Below are positions 16,826 through 22,148 of a DNA stretch of 34,596 nucleotides, in pieces (the first letter of the stretch is position 1; each line of letters opens with the position of its first letter). Under the pieces are notes generated by a model. That model searched no databases, was not told the origin of the DNA, and saw nothing but the letters and a program-made list of their open reading frames with translations. A program made the translations under genes and the position numbers. Source of the DNA: Candidatus Omnitrophota bacterium (GTDB lineage: Bacteria; Omnitrophota; Gorgyraeia; Gygaellales; Profunditerraquicolaceae); contig JAQTPA010000016.1 of the NCBI GenBank assembly GCA_028713155.1, positions 1-34,596 on the forward strand. The letters run 5' to 3'.

Positions 16826-17230
16826 TCAAAATTTTATTCTCAGTTTCCAATAATCGGTGTACTCATCTTCCGATATTTTGTTATCTTTATTGGCATCCAT
16901 TTCCCGGAAGTATTCTTTGAATTGCGAGCTGGATTCCTGCCGGGTAACTTTCCCGTCTTTATCTTTATCGGATTTCCCCACTACTCTTGTCTTATCCGCG
17001 CCTACTTCCTCTGCCTCCAGTACCCCGTTTTTGTTCTTATCTAATTCATTAAAATTCTTCTCCTGGTGAGCCTGCATTTCTTCGGGGGTAATATGGCCAT
17101 TTTTATTTACATCTATCGCCTTAAACTCGGCTTTGATTATCGGCGCGCCAATCTGATCCGCAAAAGCATCGCTGCAGGTAAGCAAGCCAAGAACACAAGA
17201 AAAAGCTCCCGCTAACTTCAGGTTCTTCAT
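16826..17230 (-). CDS. Secreted EF-hand calcium-binding protein
   Basis: A 134-residue protein with a cleavable-looking signal peptide (MKNLKLAGAFSCVLGLL, probable cut after AFA-24). Four EF-hand loops follow, each with 12 residues: DVNKNGHITPEE (40-51), DKNKNGVLEAEE (64-75), DKDKDGKVTRQE (88-99) and DANKDNKISEDE (112-123). All start with Asp and end with Glu; the fourth has Asn where Gly is usual at position 6. The protein is probably periplasmic or secreted and binds several calcium ions. Neighbours are a PAS protein and two small membrane proteins, suggesting an envelope sensor or buffer. Its partner is unknown. Confidence 0.9.
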   Translation of the reverse strand: MKNLKLAGAFSCVLGLLTCSDAFADQIGAPIIKAEFKAIDVNKNGHITPEEMQAHQEKNFNELDKNKNGVLEAEEVGADKTRVVGKSDKDKDGKVTRQESSSQFKEYFREMDANKDNKISEDEYTDYWKLRIKF

Positions 17231-17265
17231 AAATTTCTCCTTACTCTAACGCTGCCTGATTAAAC

Positions 17266-17451
17266 TTACCTTCTCTTTATATCTTTAATAAGTTTTATTA
17301 TCTGGGTATTTTTTTCGTGGATCGCATTATTCAACGTATCGATCTGTTTTCTCGACTCTTTAGCGTTTTGAAAATTTTGATAGGCAATGCCAACGGCAAT
17401 GACTAAAATCAATACGGTTATCTCGATAACAATGTTCTCTTTCTTGGCCAT
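17266..17451 (-). CDS. Small single-helix membrane protein with coiled-coil tail
   Basis: A 61-residue protein: MAKKENIVIE, one hydrophobic helix (about 9-25), then a polar, heptad-like tail (KESRKQIDTLNNAIHEKNTQIIKLIKDIKRR). It has a strong Shine-Dalgarno (AAGGAGGAA) before ATG 17451, which supports translation of this short frame. The tail would lie outside or inside the membrane depending on topology. It starts the minus-strand cluster that ends at 16021. The function is unknown. Confidence 0.65.
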   Translation of the reverse strand: MAKKENIVIEITVLILVIAVGIAYQNFQNAKESRKQIDTLNNAIHEKNTQIIKLIKDIKRR

Positions 17452-17508
17452 CTTTCCTCCTTTTTTTAAGAAACTGCTATATTAAAAAGTTTAAAATAAA
17501 AACATGTA

Positions 17509-17664
17509 TGGTGGCGGAGAGTGGTCCTGCTTCGCAGGACTGCCTAAATAGCTACAACGCCACTACTTCGTAAATAGCTGGTGGCGGAGAGTGGTCCTGC
17601 TTCGCAGGACTGCCTAAATAGCTACAACGCCACTACTTCGTAAATAGCTGGTGGCGGAGAGTGG
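17509..17664 (-). repeat. 70-bp tandem repeat built from the adjacent tRNA
   Basis: Units at 17511-17580 and 17581-17650 are identical, and a third copy of the first 14 nt is the 3' end of the real tRNA (17651-17664). On the minus strand each unit ends in CCACTCTCCGCCACCA, the tRNA's own 3' T-stem strand, acceptor, discriminator and CCA. Each also has TGGCGTTGTAGCT, matching the tRNA 5' end (TGGCGGAGTAGCT) at 11 of 13 positions. Between the two is a 7-bp hairpin GTCCTGC-GAA-GCAGGAC. Each unit thus contains a 53-nt shrunken tRNA-like body (17509-17561 and 17579-17631) with no anticodon arm. No T-run follows the hairpin, so it is not a clear terminator. Confidence 0.85.
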
Positions 17665-17725
17665 ATTTAAACCACCGACCAAGCGGGTATGAGCCGCGTG
17701 CTCTATCAGGCTGAGCTACTCCGCC
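17649..17725 (-). tRNA. tRNA with CAU anticodon (Met or Ile2)
   Basis: Acceptor GGCGGAG pairs fully with CTCCGCC; D stem GCTC/GAGC; anticodon stem CGCGG/CCGCT with loop CTCATAC; T stem GGTGG/CCACT; discriminator A and encoded CCA. The anticodon is CAU. Elongator Met and the TilS-modified Ile2 are both possible; the CCGCTTGGTC variable region looks like E. coli Ile2. Odd points: the D-loop has U where G18 is expected, the T-loop reads TTTAAAT (U56 instead of C56), and 27-43 is C-U. The elbow is therefore atypical, and the gene may be diverged or decaying. Tandem copies of its 3' end follow directly. Confidence 0.85.
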
Positions 17726-17766
17726 ATAAGTAATATACTACCAATAAACCGCAATTAACTCAACTT

Positions 17767-18555
17767 TTACTTTTTCCTATATGCCTCTAAATACGAACTA
17801 CAGTATATATTCTTATTCAAAATCAACTCGGAGGTAATCAAGGCCTCCATCAACTCCTCATCCGTCGGATCTAATATAGCCGAATCCAGACCGTAAGCAA
17901 TAGCCATAGTCAGGAAAGTGCGGTTTACCAGGCCCCTGGTATTAGTGCCTTGCGAAACATTGCTTAGCCCTAAGGTGGTTTTAGGGCTAGGTTCAGAGAT
18001 GATTTTAAATTCGCGGATTGATTCCAGGATATCCTTTAACTGCGCCTGGGCGACATTTACCGGCAAGACTATCGGGTCCAGATACAGGTTCTCTACGGGA
18101 AATTCCTTATCTACGCAGGCAGAGACAATCGTCGCCGCCAGCTCCAGGCGCTGGTCTTTATTCTGCGGTATGCCTTTTTTACTGATGGTAATACCGATAA
18201 GCTGCGCACCATATTGTTTAGCTAAAGGAATGATGATATCCAACTTTTCGCTGTCCGCGCTAACGGAATTAATAATTATTTTATTCCTGGCCGCCTTTAG
18301 GCCGGCTTCAATAACCTGATGTCTGCTTGAATCTAAACATAGCGGCTTATCCGTAATCTCCTGGACAACCTCAACCAGCCAGGGCATATCAACTAAGGGC
18401 TGCTTTGACGCCGGCCCGCAATTAATATCCAGGGCATCTGCTCCACTTTCTATCTGCCGCAAGGCGCATTTTTGAATTTCCGCTTTATCCTTTTCTTTAA
18501 TCGCCTTGCCGATATTGGCGTACATCCCGTTAATTAATTCGCCGATAATAAACAT
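17767..18555 (-). CDS. acsE: Methyltetrahydrofolate:corrinoid/iron-sulfur protein methyltransferase AcsE
   Basis: Moves the methyl group of methyl-tetrahydrofolate to the cobalt of the corrinoid Fe-S protein (AcsCD) in the Wood-Ljungdahl pathway. The 262 residues form a pterin-binding TIM barrel: FIIGELINGM, SGADALDINCGP (pterin-binding Asp and Asn), PLCLDSSRHQVIEAGL, IIINSVSA and TLGLSNVSQG. The length is that of MeTr enzymes such as Moorella AcsE. It is 3 nt after acsD and is the last acs gene of the set; the tRNA and its repeats follow it. Confidence 0.94.
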   Translation of the reverse strand: MFIIGELINGMYANIGKAIKEKDKAEIQKCALRQIESGADALDINCGPASKQPLVDMPWLVEVVQEITDKPLCLDSSRHQVIEAGLKAARNKIIINSVSADSEKLDIIIPLAKQYGAQLIGITISKKGIPQNKDQRLELAATIVSACVDKEFPVENLYLDPIVLPVNVAQAQLKDILESIREFKIISEPSPKTTLGLSNVSQGTNTRGLVNRTFLTMAIAYGLDSAILDPTDEELMEALITSELILNKNIYCSSYLEAYRKK

Positions 18556-18558
18556 AAC

Positions 18559-19497
18559 CTACCTTTCAAATAAATTATCTATGTACTTACCGACCTTTTC
18601 TATCGCCTTAGGATGGCGCATAACCAGTAAATTCGCGCCTGCCTGGACCAAGGCTATCGCGGTAAGCGCCTCCCAGATTACTCCCTGTTCCGCCGGGCCC
18701 ACCTTTGCCTCTTTTGCCCTCCAGGCTTCCTGGCCCACAAAACAGATAAACGGGCAGGCCAGTGTTTTATCTCCGGAAAGGCCGGCTAGGCGGCTGCGCT
18801 CCATAATAGAATAAGCGTACTCCAGTCCATAACCTAAAGCCCCGATAGTCGGATCCATAACAATACGCTCTAAGGTCAGGCCCATATCCGAAATTAAAAC
18901 ATTCAACTGCTTAGCGATATTGATATCTATGGGACTCTCGGCAATAATATTATGTCCGTCAGCCAGAACGCTAGCGACAATCGTCTTATAATTATCCTGC
19001 GTAGCCGGACCGATCAAACAACGTTCCTGCTTAGCTGCTTCGGAACAGGCGGGTAAAAGCAGGTTATCCTTAGCATCATCCCCGCAGCCTAAGATAATTA
19101 ACGGCACACGCACACTCTTTAATACTTTTTGGATAAGCTGCGCTTCTTCTTCGGGGGATTTGTTGCCAAAATCCTGATGCGCTCCCTGCAATCTCAGGCA
19201 TATCCCTTGTGCCTTATATTCTTTCACGCACATTTGCGCCCATTTCACCGGATCGCCGAGGACATCTTTATATCCACGAGTCAATTCATCCGGCCAATCC
19301 AAAGGAAGGGTATCCCAGACTTCAAAAACAATCTGGGGTCTATTAGGGAGCGAACCTTCCCGGAATAAACAAGGTAAAGATTTTTCTCCGCCTATTTTCA
19401 GGATGTGCGAGCGCGTGCCTTTGTCTTCCTGGGTTGCTCCGATACTTACTACCGAAACTTCTCCGGACCATTTTTCCGTCATTAGTTGCAGTGCCAT
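18559..19497 (-). CDS. acsD: Corrinoid/iron-sulfur protein small subunit AcsD (CODH/ACS delta)
   Basis: The B12-binding-partner subunit of the corrinoid Fe-S protein. The 312-residue TIM-barrel protein shows PQIVFEVWDTLPLDWPDELTRGYKDVLGDPVKWAQ and the blocks ICLRLQGAHQD, LGCGDDAKDNLLLPACSEAA, RIVMDPTIGALGYGLEYAYSIMER and DKTLACPFICFVGQEAWRAKEA, characteristic of this subunit. ATG 19497 is 8 nt after AGGAG and was chosen over the internal ATG five codons later. It overlaps the cooC/acsF stop by 16 nt. It would form a heterodimer with AcsC to take methyl from AcsE to acetyl-CoA synthase. Confidence 0.94.
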   Translation of the reverse strand: MALQLMTEKWSGEVSVVSIGATQEDKGTRSHILKIGGEKSLPCLFREGSLPNRPQIVFEVWDTLPLDWPDELTRGYKDVLGDPVKWAQMCVKEYKAQGICLRLQGAHQDFGNKSPEEEAQLIQKVLKSVRVPLIILGCGDDAKDNLLLPACSEAAKQERCLIGPATQDNYKTIVASVLADGHNIIAESPIDINIAKQLNVLISDMGLTLERIVMDPTIGALGYGLEYAYSIMERSRLAGLSGDKTLACPFICFVGQEAWRAKEAKVGPAEQGVIWEALTAIALVQAGANLLVMRHPKAIEKVGKYIDNLFER

Positions 19498-20234
19498 ATT
19501 CTGTCTCCTAATTTGCCTAAAGCCGTTAGAGTTACATTATTATTATTCAGCTTGAATAAAGAATGGCCATCCAGGCTTAAACCTTCAATCTCCGGGTCAG
19601 TTGATAATACCCCGAGAAGCTCCAGGCTTAAACCCCTGATCTTTTCCTTGTCTATCGCTTTTTCGCAGCGGTTAACAACAAGGAAATCCTTTTTAGTCTT
19701 TAAGCCCAGTTCCCGGGTTAACACTGCTATTCTTTTAGCGGCCTTTAGCCCAACAACCGTAGCATCTGAAACCACTACCAGGATATCTGTCTGGCCGGTA
19801 GTGCGCCGGGATAAATGCTCCAGGCCTGCTTCATTATCTATCACCACAAAATCATAATCTTTAACTAATTTTCCCATAACATTACGCAGGGCGTTGTTCA
19901 CGTAGCAATAACAGCCAGGGCCTTCAGGCCTACCCATCGTCAAAACATCGAAATTATCACCCTCAGCTATAGCCGTCTGCACGCGGTATTCAATAAAAGC
20001 GTCTTTACCCATATTTACCGGAACACTTTGCGGATGGCTGGCCAAATCATCCAGTATGGAACTGATACTCTCTTTTATCTCCAACCCTAAAACTTCGGCA
20101 AGATTGCTGTTTGGGTCAGCGTCTACCGCTAAAACCGAACCCAGTTTTTTTTCCTTGATGATCCGCACAAACAGGGCGGCGAGAGTAGTTTTACCGGTTC
20201 CGCCTTTACCCGCCAGAGCAATAACCTGGCCCAT
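19482..20234 (-). CDS. CooC/AcsF-type nickel-insertion ATPase
   Basis: A 250-residue MinD-type ATPase. The deviant Walker A motif KGGTGKTT (10-17) has the signature Lys, VDADPNSNLAE follows, and the Cys pair CYC (108, 110) in GPGCYCYVNN is the metal-binding CxC that joins two subunits in CooC proteins. CooC and AcsF mature the nickel sites of CO dehydrogenase and acetyl-CoA synthase, respectively. Which target applies here cannot be told. The start follows the acsV stop directly as TGAATG, and it lies between acsV and acsD. The presence of a maturation ATPase suggests that a nickel CODH or ACS exists elsewhere in the genome. Confidence 0.9.
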   Translation of the reverse strand: MGQVIALAGKGGTGKTTLAALFVRIIKEKKLGSVLAVDADPNSNLAEVLGLEIKESISSILDDLASHPQSVPVNMGKDAFIEYRVQTAIAEGDNFDVLTMGRPEGPGCYCYVNNALRNVMGKLVKDYDFVVIDNEAGLEHLSRRTTGQTDILVVVSDATVVGLKAAKRIAVLTRELGLKTKKDFLVVNRCEKAIDKEKIRGLSLELLGVLSTDPEIEGLSLDGHSLFKLNNNNVTLTALGKLGDRIWHCN

Positions 20235-22148
20235 TCAACTTCTCCTGCCTTCCGCCGAAGAAAACCTATCCAAATCCGTGTGCGGAAAAAATAAAGCCGC
20301 CATATACTCGTCCATATAGCCCGCATCAACCGATAATTCAAAATAGGTAATTTTACGCGCGAGCTCTTCGGATATCCTGGCCGCCTCTGCGGATAAAAGC
20401 ATCTGCCGCGCCCCGGCCAATGCGCTGTTACCGATAAAGAAAAACCTCTTTCTCTCTAAATCCGGAAGCAGGCCGATCTTTATCGCGCTATCTATATCCA
20501 GGGAAGTGCCAAATCCTCCGGCAATAAAAATCTTTTTTACATCCTTAATTTTAAAATCCATATGTTTAATTAAAACCGCACTCGCCGAATAAATCGCAGC
20601 CTTCGCCCGTTTTATGTTTTCGATATCAGCTTCAGTGATAACTATATCCTCTCCCGAACCGGAATCTTCTTTAAAAACCACTACAAATTCTTTCCCGCTC
20701 TCGCCCTCCCTTATCCGCTTATGCTCCGCGATTCTGATCTTGCCGCTCCTATCCATAACGCCAACCGTAAACAGGCTAGCGATTAAATCAATGTAACCCG
20801 AACCGCAAATACCCGTCGGCCTAGTATCGGCAATAGTAGAAAGTTCAAGTGAAAAGTCTTCCGGGTTGATCTTTACTTTCTGAATGGCGCCGCTGGAAGC
20901 GCGCATACCGCACTTTACTCCACTTCCCTCAAACGCCGGGCCGGCAGAAGCAGCGCAGGCAACCAGAAAATCCTTATTACCGAGCGCAATTTCGCCGTTA
21001 GTACCGATATCGATCAGAATGCTCAAATCCCTTTCCTTATATAAACCGCTGGAAAGCACTCCGCTAGTCGCATCTCCTCCGACATAACTTGATACCCCCG
21101 GCACGCAGGACAAGAGCCCGCGCGGATTAATAATTATCCCGGCTTCCGATGCCCTTAAGACCGGCAGGAAATTTGCCGTTGGCACATACGGCTCGCGCCT
21201 GATATAAGTAGGGTCAACCCGCAGCAATAGATGTATCATTGTCGTATTTCCCGTGCAAACAATACAGGTAACATCGTTTAAATCTACGCTATGCTCAAGG
21301 GTCAATTCCTTGATTATCTGGTTCATCGTCTGGGTTACCGCAGCGTGTAATTTCTCCATCCCCTCTTCCTGGCGGGCGTAGATAATGCGCGTAATCACAT
21401 CCGAACCAAAACTGGCCTGTTTATTATAGGTTACCCTGGTGCCCGATATTTTTTTAGTGTTTAAATCCACTAATTGTCCGGAAATAGTCGTTGTGCCTAT
21501 ATCAAAACAAAAACCAAAGTTCTTATTTGAGGTATCGCCCGGCTCAACCAAAACAATTTCTACCGTATCATTTCTCTTGCCGAGAGTGACCGTAATCTTC
21601 CAATCGGAATCACGCAGCAATTCTCCCAGCTGCCTGATATTGCTTAAGCCGGTCTGCATAACCGGCAGACCTTGCGCTTTGCGGATACCGCGGAAAAGGC
21701 GGTCCAGGTCGCTTAAGGAATCATTTAAATCAGGCCGGGGTAATTCCAAATATAATTTTGTGGCCAGCGGCGAATGTTTAAATATCTTATCGCTTAAAAC
21801 CGCTTCCCGCGACTCTACCTCTTCGGAGGCTGAATAAATCCCCTGAAAGCCTGAATGCATCTCCATTCTTGATTCAACGGGAACTTCAACCTCCAAATCG
21901 CTATGCACGGTAGTAAGACAGGCTAAATATATATTGTGTTTTCTCTCTTGTGCGTCGATTATGCCGGTAGACTGGGTCAGGACTTTGCCTTTTTTTAAAA
22001 TAACTTTGCACCTTCCGCATACTCCGTCTCCGCCGCAGTCCGACTTTATATACACCCCGCAGGAGATCGCCGCCGAAAGGATAGTCGCATCCTTGGCTAC
22101 TTCTACTGCTTTATTATCCGGATAAAACGTAACTTTGAATTTATGCAT
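20235..22148 (-). CDS. acsV: Corrinoid protein reductive activator (RACo/AcsV-like), 2Fe-2S and ASKHA domains
   Basis: Reactivates the cobalt of the corrinoid Fe-S protein when it slips to Co(II), using ATP. The 637-residue protein starts with a plant-type [2Fe-2S] ferredoxin domain with Cys38, Cys44, Cys47 and Cys77 (CX5CX2C then a distant Cys). A linker is followed by an ASKHA-fold ATPase: FCFDIGTTTISGQLVDL (phosphate-binding), VCTGNTTMIHLL, LIDIGTNGEIALG and FIAGGFGTSLDIDSAI. This is the layout of RACo, encoded with acs genes in acetogens. Its start abuts the acsC stop (TAAATG). It lies between acsC and the maturation ATPase gene. Confidence 0.93.
   Translation of the reverse strand: MHKFKVTFYPDNKAVEVAKDATILSAAISCGVYIKSDCGGDGVCGRCKVILKKGKVLTQSTGIIDAQERKHNIYLACLTTVHSDLEVEVPVESRMEMHSGFQGIYSASEEVESREAVLSDKIFKHSPLATKLYLELPRPDLNDSLSDLDRLFRGIRKAQGLPVMQTGLSNIRQLGELLRDSDWKITVTLGKRNDTVEIVLVEPGDTSNKNFGFCFDIGTTTISGQLVDLNTKKISGTRVTYNKQASFGSDVITRIIYARQEEGMEKLHAAVTQTMNQIIKELTLEHSVDLNDVTCIVCTGNTTMIHLLLRVDPTYIRREPYVPTANFLPVLRASEAGIIINPRGLLSCVPGVSSYVGGDATSGVLSSGLYKERDLSILIDIGTNGEIALGNKDFLVACAASAGPAFEGSGVKCGMRASSGAIQKVKINPEDFSLELSTIADTRPTGICGSGYIDLIASLFTVGVMDRSGKIRIAEHKRIREGESGKEFVVVFKEDSGSGEDIVITEADIENIKRAKAAIYSASAVLIKHMDFKIKDVKKIFIAGGFGTSLDIDSAIKIGLLPDLERKRFFFIGNSALAGARQMLLSAEAARISEELARKITYFELSVDAGYMDEYMAALFFPHTDLDRFSSAEGRRS

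Follow-up and report, generated by a model that had tools for sequence, protein, structure and literature searches.

What are the short repeats that directly follow a tRNA gene in a Candidatus Omnitrophota genome, and how did each of them come to end in a copy of that gene's own 3' end? Large elements are well known to integrate at tRNA genes. We analysed the stretch of 34,596 nt that contains the repeats (the window), together with related genomes. A first-pass annotation, made from the letters of the window, had offered three readings of the repeated units: decaying duplicates of the whole tRNA, attachment-site duplications, or small tRNA-like RNAs with a usable CCA end. Genomes are labelled G000 (own genome), G001-G006 (same genus), and G035, G068 and others (same family, f1).

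Two identical units follow tRNA-Met(CAU)

Comparison of repeats bore out the arrangement that had been annotated: two identical units lie downstream of the CAU tRNA at an exact 70-bp period (17509-17578 and 17579-17648), and each closes with the same 16 nt as tRNA-Met. The units follow the tRNA in its own sense, i.e. in falling coordinates, and a third, partial copy of the repeat (16 nt, 17649-17664) is the 3' end of tRNA-Met itself. Read in the tRNA sense, each unit consists of a spacer (GCTATTTACGAAGTA), the hexamer GTGGCG, a linker, the hairpin GTCCTGC-GAA-GCAGGAC and a tail copy (CCACTCTCCGCCACCA), the first C of which doubles as the last base of the hairpin. The features of the locus are as follows:

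17649-17725, minus strand: tRNA-Met(CAU), the gene that carries the array; intact, with an encoded CCA (ARAGORN and Rfam agree)
17649-17664, minus strand: 3' end of tRNA-Met (3' strand of the T stem, 3' strand of the acceptor, CCA); the duplicated 16 nt
17579-17648, minus strand: unit 1, 70 bp (repeat comparison)
17634-17648, minus strand: spacer of unit 1, GCTATTTACGAAGTA; spacers are alike in G005, G021, G035, G068 and G001
17628-17633, minus strand: proximal strand of unit 1, GTGGCG; reverse complement of CGCCAC in the tRNA tail
17594-17610, minus strand: inner hairpin of unit 1, GTCCTGC-GAA-GCAGGAC
17579-17594, minus strand: tail copy of unit 1, CCACTCTCCGCCACCA
17509-17578, minus strand: unit 2, 70 bp, same sequence as unit 1 (repeat comparison)
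17564-17578, minus strand: spacer of unit 2, GCTATTTACGAAGTA
17558-17563, minus strand: proximal strand of unit 2, GTGGCG
17524-17540, minus strand: inner hairpin of unit 2
17509-17524, minus strand: tail copy of unit 2, CCACTCTCCGCCACCA, which at its outer edge meets the native flank TACATG (TAGATG at the empty site)
17266-17451, minus strand: small ORF of 61 aa after a GGAGG motif, the first gene downstream of the array; conserved in this position in G005 and G006

The annotated 7-bp hairpin with its GAA loop is present in both units, against a chance expectation of 0.08 matches on average in the whole window. The 13-nt block said to match the 5' end of the tRNA at 11 positions is there too (p ~0.005 against resampled sequence; p ~0.018 with the tail-pairing GTGGCG held fixed, and 0.025 for any 13-mer of the tRNA). 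Our sample of the own genome comprised ~307 kb of stretches plus the window, 341 kb in total. Across it we detected only two other direct repeats of at least 14 nt at 30-200 bp spacing, plus one that spans an assembly gap. Within the sampled DNA of its own genome, the window repeat is a clear outlier.

Downstream of the array, the 61-aa ORF, for which we found no Pfam match, is followed by a gene for an EF-hand protein. Upstream of tRNA-Met, a Wood-Ljungdahl-type cluster (pterin-binding enzyme, CdhD, RACo) occupies 17767-22148. Several simple identities for the units were discarded. We rejected a terminator, since no terminator-like site was predicted in 17200-17900, and a dispersed repeat family, since the unit occurs in its own genome at this locus only, with no dispersed copies. 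A CRISPR-like reading (16-nt repeat, 54-nt spacer) was dropped, there being no Cas1 and few spacers. The locus was read from a single MAG assembly, and the exact copy number may be miscounted.

Units come and go at tRNA ends

The orthologous tRNA-Met locus was identified in 45 of 108 genomes of the family. A 12-nt tail copy (at most one mismatch) was found within 350 nt at 13 of 48 tRNA-Met loci, and either a tail copy or a GTGGC..GCCAC hairpin at 17 of the 48; the tail reversed or reverse-complemented, used as a control, matched at none of these loci. The search of relatives that the first-pass annotation had called for revealed copy numbers from 0 to 4, differing between genomes. Relatives with units at tRNA-Met have one to four different units, ~49 to 109 nt in length across the family. 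Within the genus, with both flanks conserved, G006 has no unit, G005 has one and G000 has two, while G001 has three units of another type. The junction is exact: CCA is followed by TAGATG in G006, and by the units and then TACATG in G000. A second filled/empty pair occurs at tRNA-Arg(tct), where G000 has a palindrome-rich insert of ~110 bp and the G001 site is uninterrupted; the G000 insert is bounded by a 20-bp repeat that consists of 3 nt upstream of the tRNA plus tRNA positions 1-17. We conclude from the two filled/empty pairs that whole units come and go at tRNA ends, both at the 3' end (16-bp repeat) and at the 5' end (20-bp repeat).

The genus also has two tRNA-Met alleles (GGCGGAG..CTCCGCC and GGCGGCG..GCCGCC), which differ at many sites; the flanks are unchanged in G000, G006 and G005.

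The inner hairpins at tRNA-Met are diverse, and include TCCTGC-GAA-GCAGGA, TCCCC-GAA-GGGGA, longer GAAGCGATAGC forms, GGTCCCGAGCGTAGCGAGCGGACC and GTTCACTT..AAGTGAAC. In G068 and G035, different inner hairpins are stacked at one tRNA; hence, the arrays reflect more than tandem copying of one unit. The tail copies, by contrast with this variety of inner sequence, agree with the local tRNA allele: CTCTCCGCCA is found by CTC-type tRNAs, and GCCGCCGCCA or a close variant by GCC-type tRNAs (G005, G023 and the first two units of G035). The exception is the third unit after the GCC-type tRNA-Met in G035, which is CTC-type. Another ~0.6 kb along is a displaced 3' half of a CTC-type tRNA-Met that has a unit of its own, as though a tRNA and two units had been swapped in. 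This stretch of G035 contig C131 (L003:1356-2400) reads, in order, tRNA-Met, units, a small cysteine-rich ORF (zinc-ribbon-like by eye), and the 3' half of the other-allele tRNA-Met with its own unit.

A shared layout around a variable core

The units have a common layout, in which a proximal strand complementary to the tRNA tail is followed by a variable inner hairpin and a direct copy of the tail. In Met units, the copied segment runs mostly from the first base of the T-stem 3' strand to the end of the tRNA or slightly past it. The register in which the proximal strand pairs differs between units (GTGGCG/CGCCAC, GAGAG/CTCTC, and another in G023). Structure prediction, also proposed at the outset, gave a hairpin for all 17 units that we folded, despite their differing inner sequence, with the tail copy mostly in the outer 3' strand, but it left the ACCA of the window unit partly buried in the outer stem (the A and the first C). 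Single-unit z-scores were modest (-1.1 to -2.5), so folding energies alone are no proof of a selected RNA. In the minimum-energy fold of a 236-nt transcript, the 5' strand of the tRNA acceptor pairs with the last tail copy instead of with its own 3' strand. Competition of the tail copies for the acceptor 5' strand would thus be plausible, the predicted fold being weak evidence for it.

Two of the three original readings fared poorly in this comparison. Similarity to the 5' end of the tRNA drops from 11 of 13 positions in G000 to 10 in G005 and G125, and to 6-8 in the remaining 14 units; hence, it is not a conserved part of the unit, and GTGGCG is explained as the partner of CGCCAC. We found no support for the window units as decaying duplicates of the whole tRNA, and rejected both chance and simple decay for them, since the inner hairpin and the outer pairing persist and the 5' similarity does not. 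A decayed duplicate does suit T-loop-interrupted partial copies of tRNA-Val and tRNA-Met/Ile in G035. On contig C40 of that genome (L129), the palindrome CCTGCCTGCCGGCAGGCAGG sits at the same point of the T loop (TTCG/AATC, TCCG/AATC) in the partial copies of tRNA-Met/Ile and tRNA-Val. The proposal of a tRNA-like RNA with a usable CCA was weakened by the burial of the A and first C in the window fold, and by tail copies ending in CTA, TTT, CTG or CTT next to tRNA genes that do not encode CCA (G125, G134, G010, G023). Because such tails exist, a usable CCA is not what is kept.

End copies at other tRNAs

Copies of tRNA ends extend well beyond tRNA-Met. In four genomes (G000, G035, G068, G001), we looked within 400 nt of each of 107 tRNAs for exact direct repeats of 13 nt or more of the tRNA itself and found them at 15, as compared with 30 of 4000 random 77-mers (0.75%) in a control drawn from G000 only (odds ratio 22, p ~1e-13). 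These genomes were partly picked for units at the Met locus; when their three Met loci are set aside, 12 of 104 tRNAs have such a repeat. Seven of the repeats are head copies, which cover the first 13 to 17 positions of the tRNA and all lie upstream. Tail copies start at tRNA positions 57-64 and all lie downstream. One copy is internal (G001 tRNA-His, positions 22-54), and no inverted copies were detected among the 15 tRNAs with repeats.

Several head units read head, hairpin, and TTTCGC plus the complement of the head, as in the tRNA-Lys example GGGCCATTAGCTCA-[TACCCTAACGGGTA]-TTTCGCTAATGG. The tRNA-Lys head frame encloses three different inner sequences in G035, G068 and G012, and a reversed control of the Lys head pattern had no match in 384 genomes. 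Two head units stand in tandem at tRNA-Met/Ile(CAU) of G068. The tail units of G035 tRNA-Glu contain GTCCTACGAAGC..GAAGCAGGAC, akin to the Met module, between CAACCG and the Glu tail CGGTTGGGGACG. Since this unit combines a Met-related module with Glu arms, we conclude that the recurring module is separable from the target-derived arms. When exact Met doublets and the Lys head unit were sought across the phylum, matches came from the own family only, save one in G089; the true range of the units may be wider, because exact patterns miss diverged units.

Origin of the units

We conclude that the window units are probably copies of a short, palindromic and non-coding insertion that lodges at tRNA gene ends in one Omnitrophota family. 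The unit lies directly after the tRNA, whose end recurs as a direct repeat (16 bp here) that delimits it, and a unit-free locus with intact flanks exists. Unit number and inner hairpin vary between relatives, and the outer arms follow the adjacent tRNA. By kind, we file the units as a small non-autonomous palindromic insertion that is a member of no named family. Of the three readings first offered, attachment-site duplication came nearest: the filled/empty pair, the direct repeat of the tRNA end and the stacking of different units at one site all agree with it.

We propose that a unit would enter the tRNA end as hairpin-forming DNA, and that the 3' end of the tRNA (the 5' end for the mirror-image upstream units) would be duplicated in the process, such that the tRNA gene stays intact. 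The repeated tRNA end would then permit tandem gain and loss by recombination or slippage. The complementary proximal strand may be kept since it would sequester the extra acceptor strand; left free in a nascent transcript, that strand would compete with the genuine one for pairing to the 5' strand of the tRNA.

Several observations count against an insertion. The direct repeat varies from 13 to 20 bp across units, which is not normal for a single transposase; we could link no transposase, integrase or other enzyme to the units; and the own genome has no dispersed copies of the window unit. In addition, a simple target-site duplication gives no inverted proximal copy, so that transcript selection or template switching must be invoked; the proximal complementary strand either arose by template switching or is kept to tie up the spare tail copy. 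It is also conceivable, though rather unlikely, that the units are target-armed mobile palindromes, in which a recurring hairpin module gains a direct copy and the complement of a tRNA end (Met-armed, Glu-armed). Such a unit might switch the maturation of that tRNA, because the complementary strand can pair with either the copy or the real tRNA end.

Replication error alone could also be responsible, although we consider this somewhat unlikely. Template switching at the tRNA end would generate an inverted and a direct copy, and slippage would amplify them, such that the units would be a mutational signature of the family's tRNA genes, with no element or enzyme involved. Template switching accounts for the order of tail, inverted copy and direct copy, for arms drawn from the local tRNA, for the variable repeat length and for the lack of a common enzyme, and slippage suits the identical tandem copies that we found in G000 and G139. 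However, inner modules are related across tRNAs and genera (GTCCTRCGAAGC at Met and Glu; a TTTCGCT frame at Lys, Arg and Met/Ile), and would not arise from copying errors that are only local.

An insertion invites a search for machinery, and here the leads bear on a further, improbable reading: that the units persist from larger integrative elements, repeats and palindromes being what stayed behind when an integrase or GIY-YIG element was deleted from its tRNA attachment site. GIY-YIG matches were detected in all 16 genomes searched, and solo GIY-YIG ORFs have a tRNA within 1.5 kb at 6 of 22 loci (p ~0.01 by a rough density estimate). In G035, an 83-aa GIY-YIG ORF lies between tRNA-Asp and a second copy of its 3' end (L134:304-839), and displaced halves of tRNA-Met and tRNA-Lys, with units, lie ~0.6-1.2 kb off, with breaks in the anticodon arm. 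At tRNA-Lys(ctt) on contig C127 (L244:1500-2830), the displaced 5' half and its own head unit are ~1.2 kb upstream of the intact tRNA, which has an identical head unit, and the interval holds a 120-aa ORF for which Pfam gave no match. The break of this half is in the anticodon region, a usual place of integrase crossover. We regard the GIY-YIG ORFs and displaced tRNA halves as leads, not proof. G005 and G006 have GIY-YIG matches only in UvrC-length ORFs, with no solo ORF, and we read no integrase in the G035 cargo. Most units have no cargo, and repeated independent deletion to a core of 50-60 nt is unlikely.

At the window locus, no recombinase gene or cargo lies between the repeats. Cas1 was absent from 15 of 16 genomes searched, G000 included, and a Y1 (RAYT/IS200-like) transposase was found once in G000 and not in unit-bearing G035 or G060; neither enzyme appears to be required. 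No autonomous partner was identified, and the inverted arms of the units follow the local tRNA rather than being constant. We rejected a phage origin (0 matches in an IMG/VR pattern scan; phage records match the tRNA part only) and a plasmid origin (no plasmid matches).

It is quite improbable that the units are functional small RNAs, cut from the pre-tRNA transcript as CCA-ended tRNA-like hairpins that serve as decoys for tRNA enzymes or have a role like that of E. coli RtT RNA. The window units do lie on the sense strand between tRNA-Met and the next gene, with no terminator-like site between, and hairpin shape is retained while sequence changes. The z-score of the 236-nt transcript is -4.2, but this value is inflated by the tandem repeats and by the tRNA itself. 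Tail copies without CCA in G125, G134, G010 and G023, and presence or absence of units within one genus, argue against such a role. A known Rfam RNA was rejected, as no family, RtT included, matched at E up to 10 beyond tRNA and chance matches.

An assembly artefact or collapse at the repeated tRNA end is highly improbable and is refuted as the sole explanation. In its favour, the own genome is a MAG of 48 contigs, repeated tRNA ends accompany N gaps at fMet of G000 and in G135, and contigs of G133 end at tRNA-Met. Against it, related but different units are present in assemblies made independently from elsewhere (LacPavin, Sandtown), which rules out the pure assembly error that the first-pass annotation had allowed for. 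On contig C25 of G000, a 100-N gap almost directly follows the initiator tRNA (L116/L127), with CAACCAATA on both sides, and may hide another array. The contig ends in G133 (L102, L103) and the N gap in G135 (L105) at tRNA-Met are as expected of unresolved repeats.

Comparison with known systems

Repeats in the E. coli tyrT operon reportedly have a 178-bp period and include a 19-bp copy of the tRNA. As outlined in a later paper, these repeats, associated with RtT RNA, are tandem units downstream of a tRNA, each with a copy of the tRNA 3' end (Bosl and Kersten 1991, in PMC4986893). The window units are likewise tandem, directly after the tRNA, on its sense strand, and with the tRNA 3' end copied in each. 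Unlike the tyrT repeats, the Omnitrophota units have a period of ~50-109 bp as against ~178 bp, hairpins with a variable core, presence or absence between sister species, and mirror-image units at tRNA 5' ends. The RtT covariance model gave no match at E up to 10.

GC-rich palindromes flank tRNA genes in Neurospora mitochondria (Yin et al. 1981, as cited in PMC4478555), and yeast mitochondria have mobile GC clusters (PMC4478555). Like these, the Omnitrophota units are small and would move without a known dedicated enzyme, and some are beside tRNA genes or in tandem arrays. Mitochondrial palindromes, to our knowledge, carry no arms copied from a neighbouring tRNA, whereas the Omnitrophota units have arms copied from the adjoining tRNA. 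REP elements are linked to RAYT transposases (PMC3733652). The units resemble REP elements in being short, non-autonomous palindromes outside coding regions that plausibly form RNA hairpins; they differ in that the window unit has no dispersed copies and the units form no constant family with a GTAG tag. A Y1 transposase was not found in unit-rich G035.

Casposons insert beside the 3' end of a tRNA with direct repeats and leave the target gene intact (PMC4046053). The window locus similarly has a direct repeat at the tRNA 3' end and an intact tRNA, but Cas1 is absent from 15 of 16 genomes and the units carry no polymerase cargo. Integrases of genomic islands attach in tRNA genes, and the tRNA 3' end then recurs as a direct repeat on the far side of the inserted DNA. 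Unlike such sites, the Omnitrophota insert is ~54 bp and gene-free, has one strand complementary to the tRNA end, and is also found at tRNA 5' ends. The filled and empty orthologous sites at tRNA-Met and tRNA-Arg(tct) are like those of MITE-type insertions.

In the open-licence literature we found no description of such units in Omnitrophota, and hairpins of 50-110 nt whose arms come from a tRNA end, with exactly one such end duplicated, fit no described bacterial class that we found. Should the units be confirmed, they would reveal the way in which tRNA flanks are remodelled in a phylum that has been little studied, and would account for contig breaks and N gaps at tRNAs in MAGs of this kind. 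They would also provide a comparative system for the entry of palindromes into the region of an essential RNA gene without breaking the gene.
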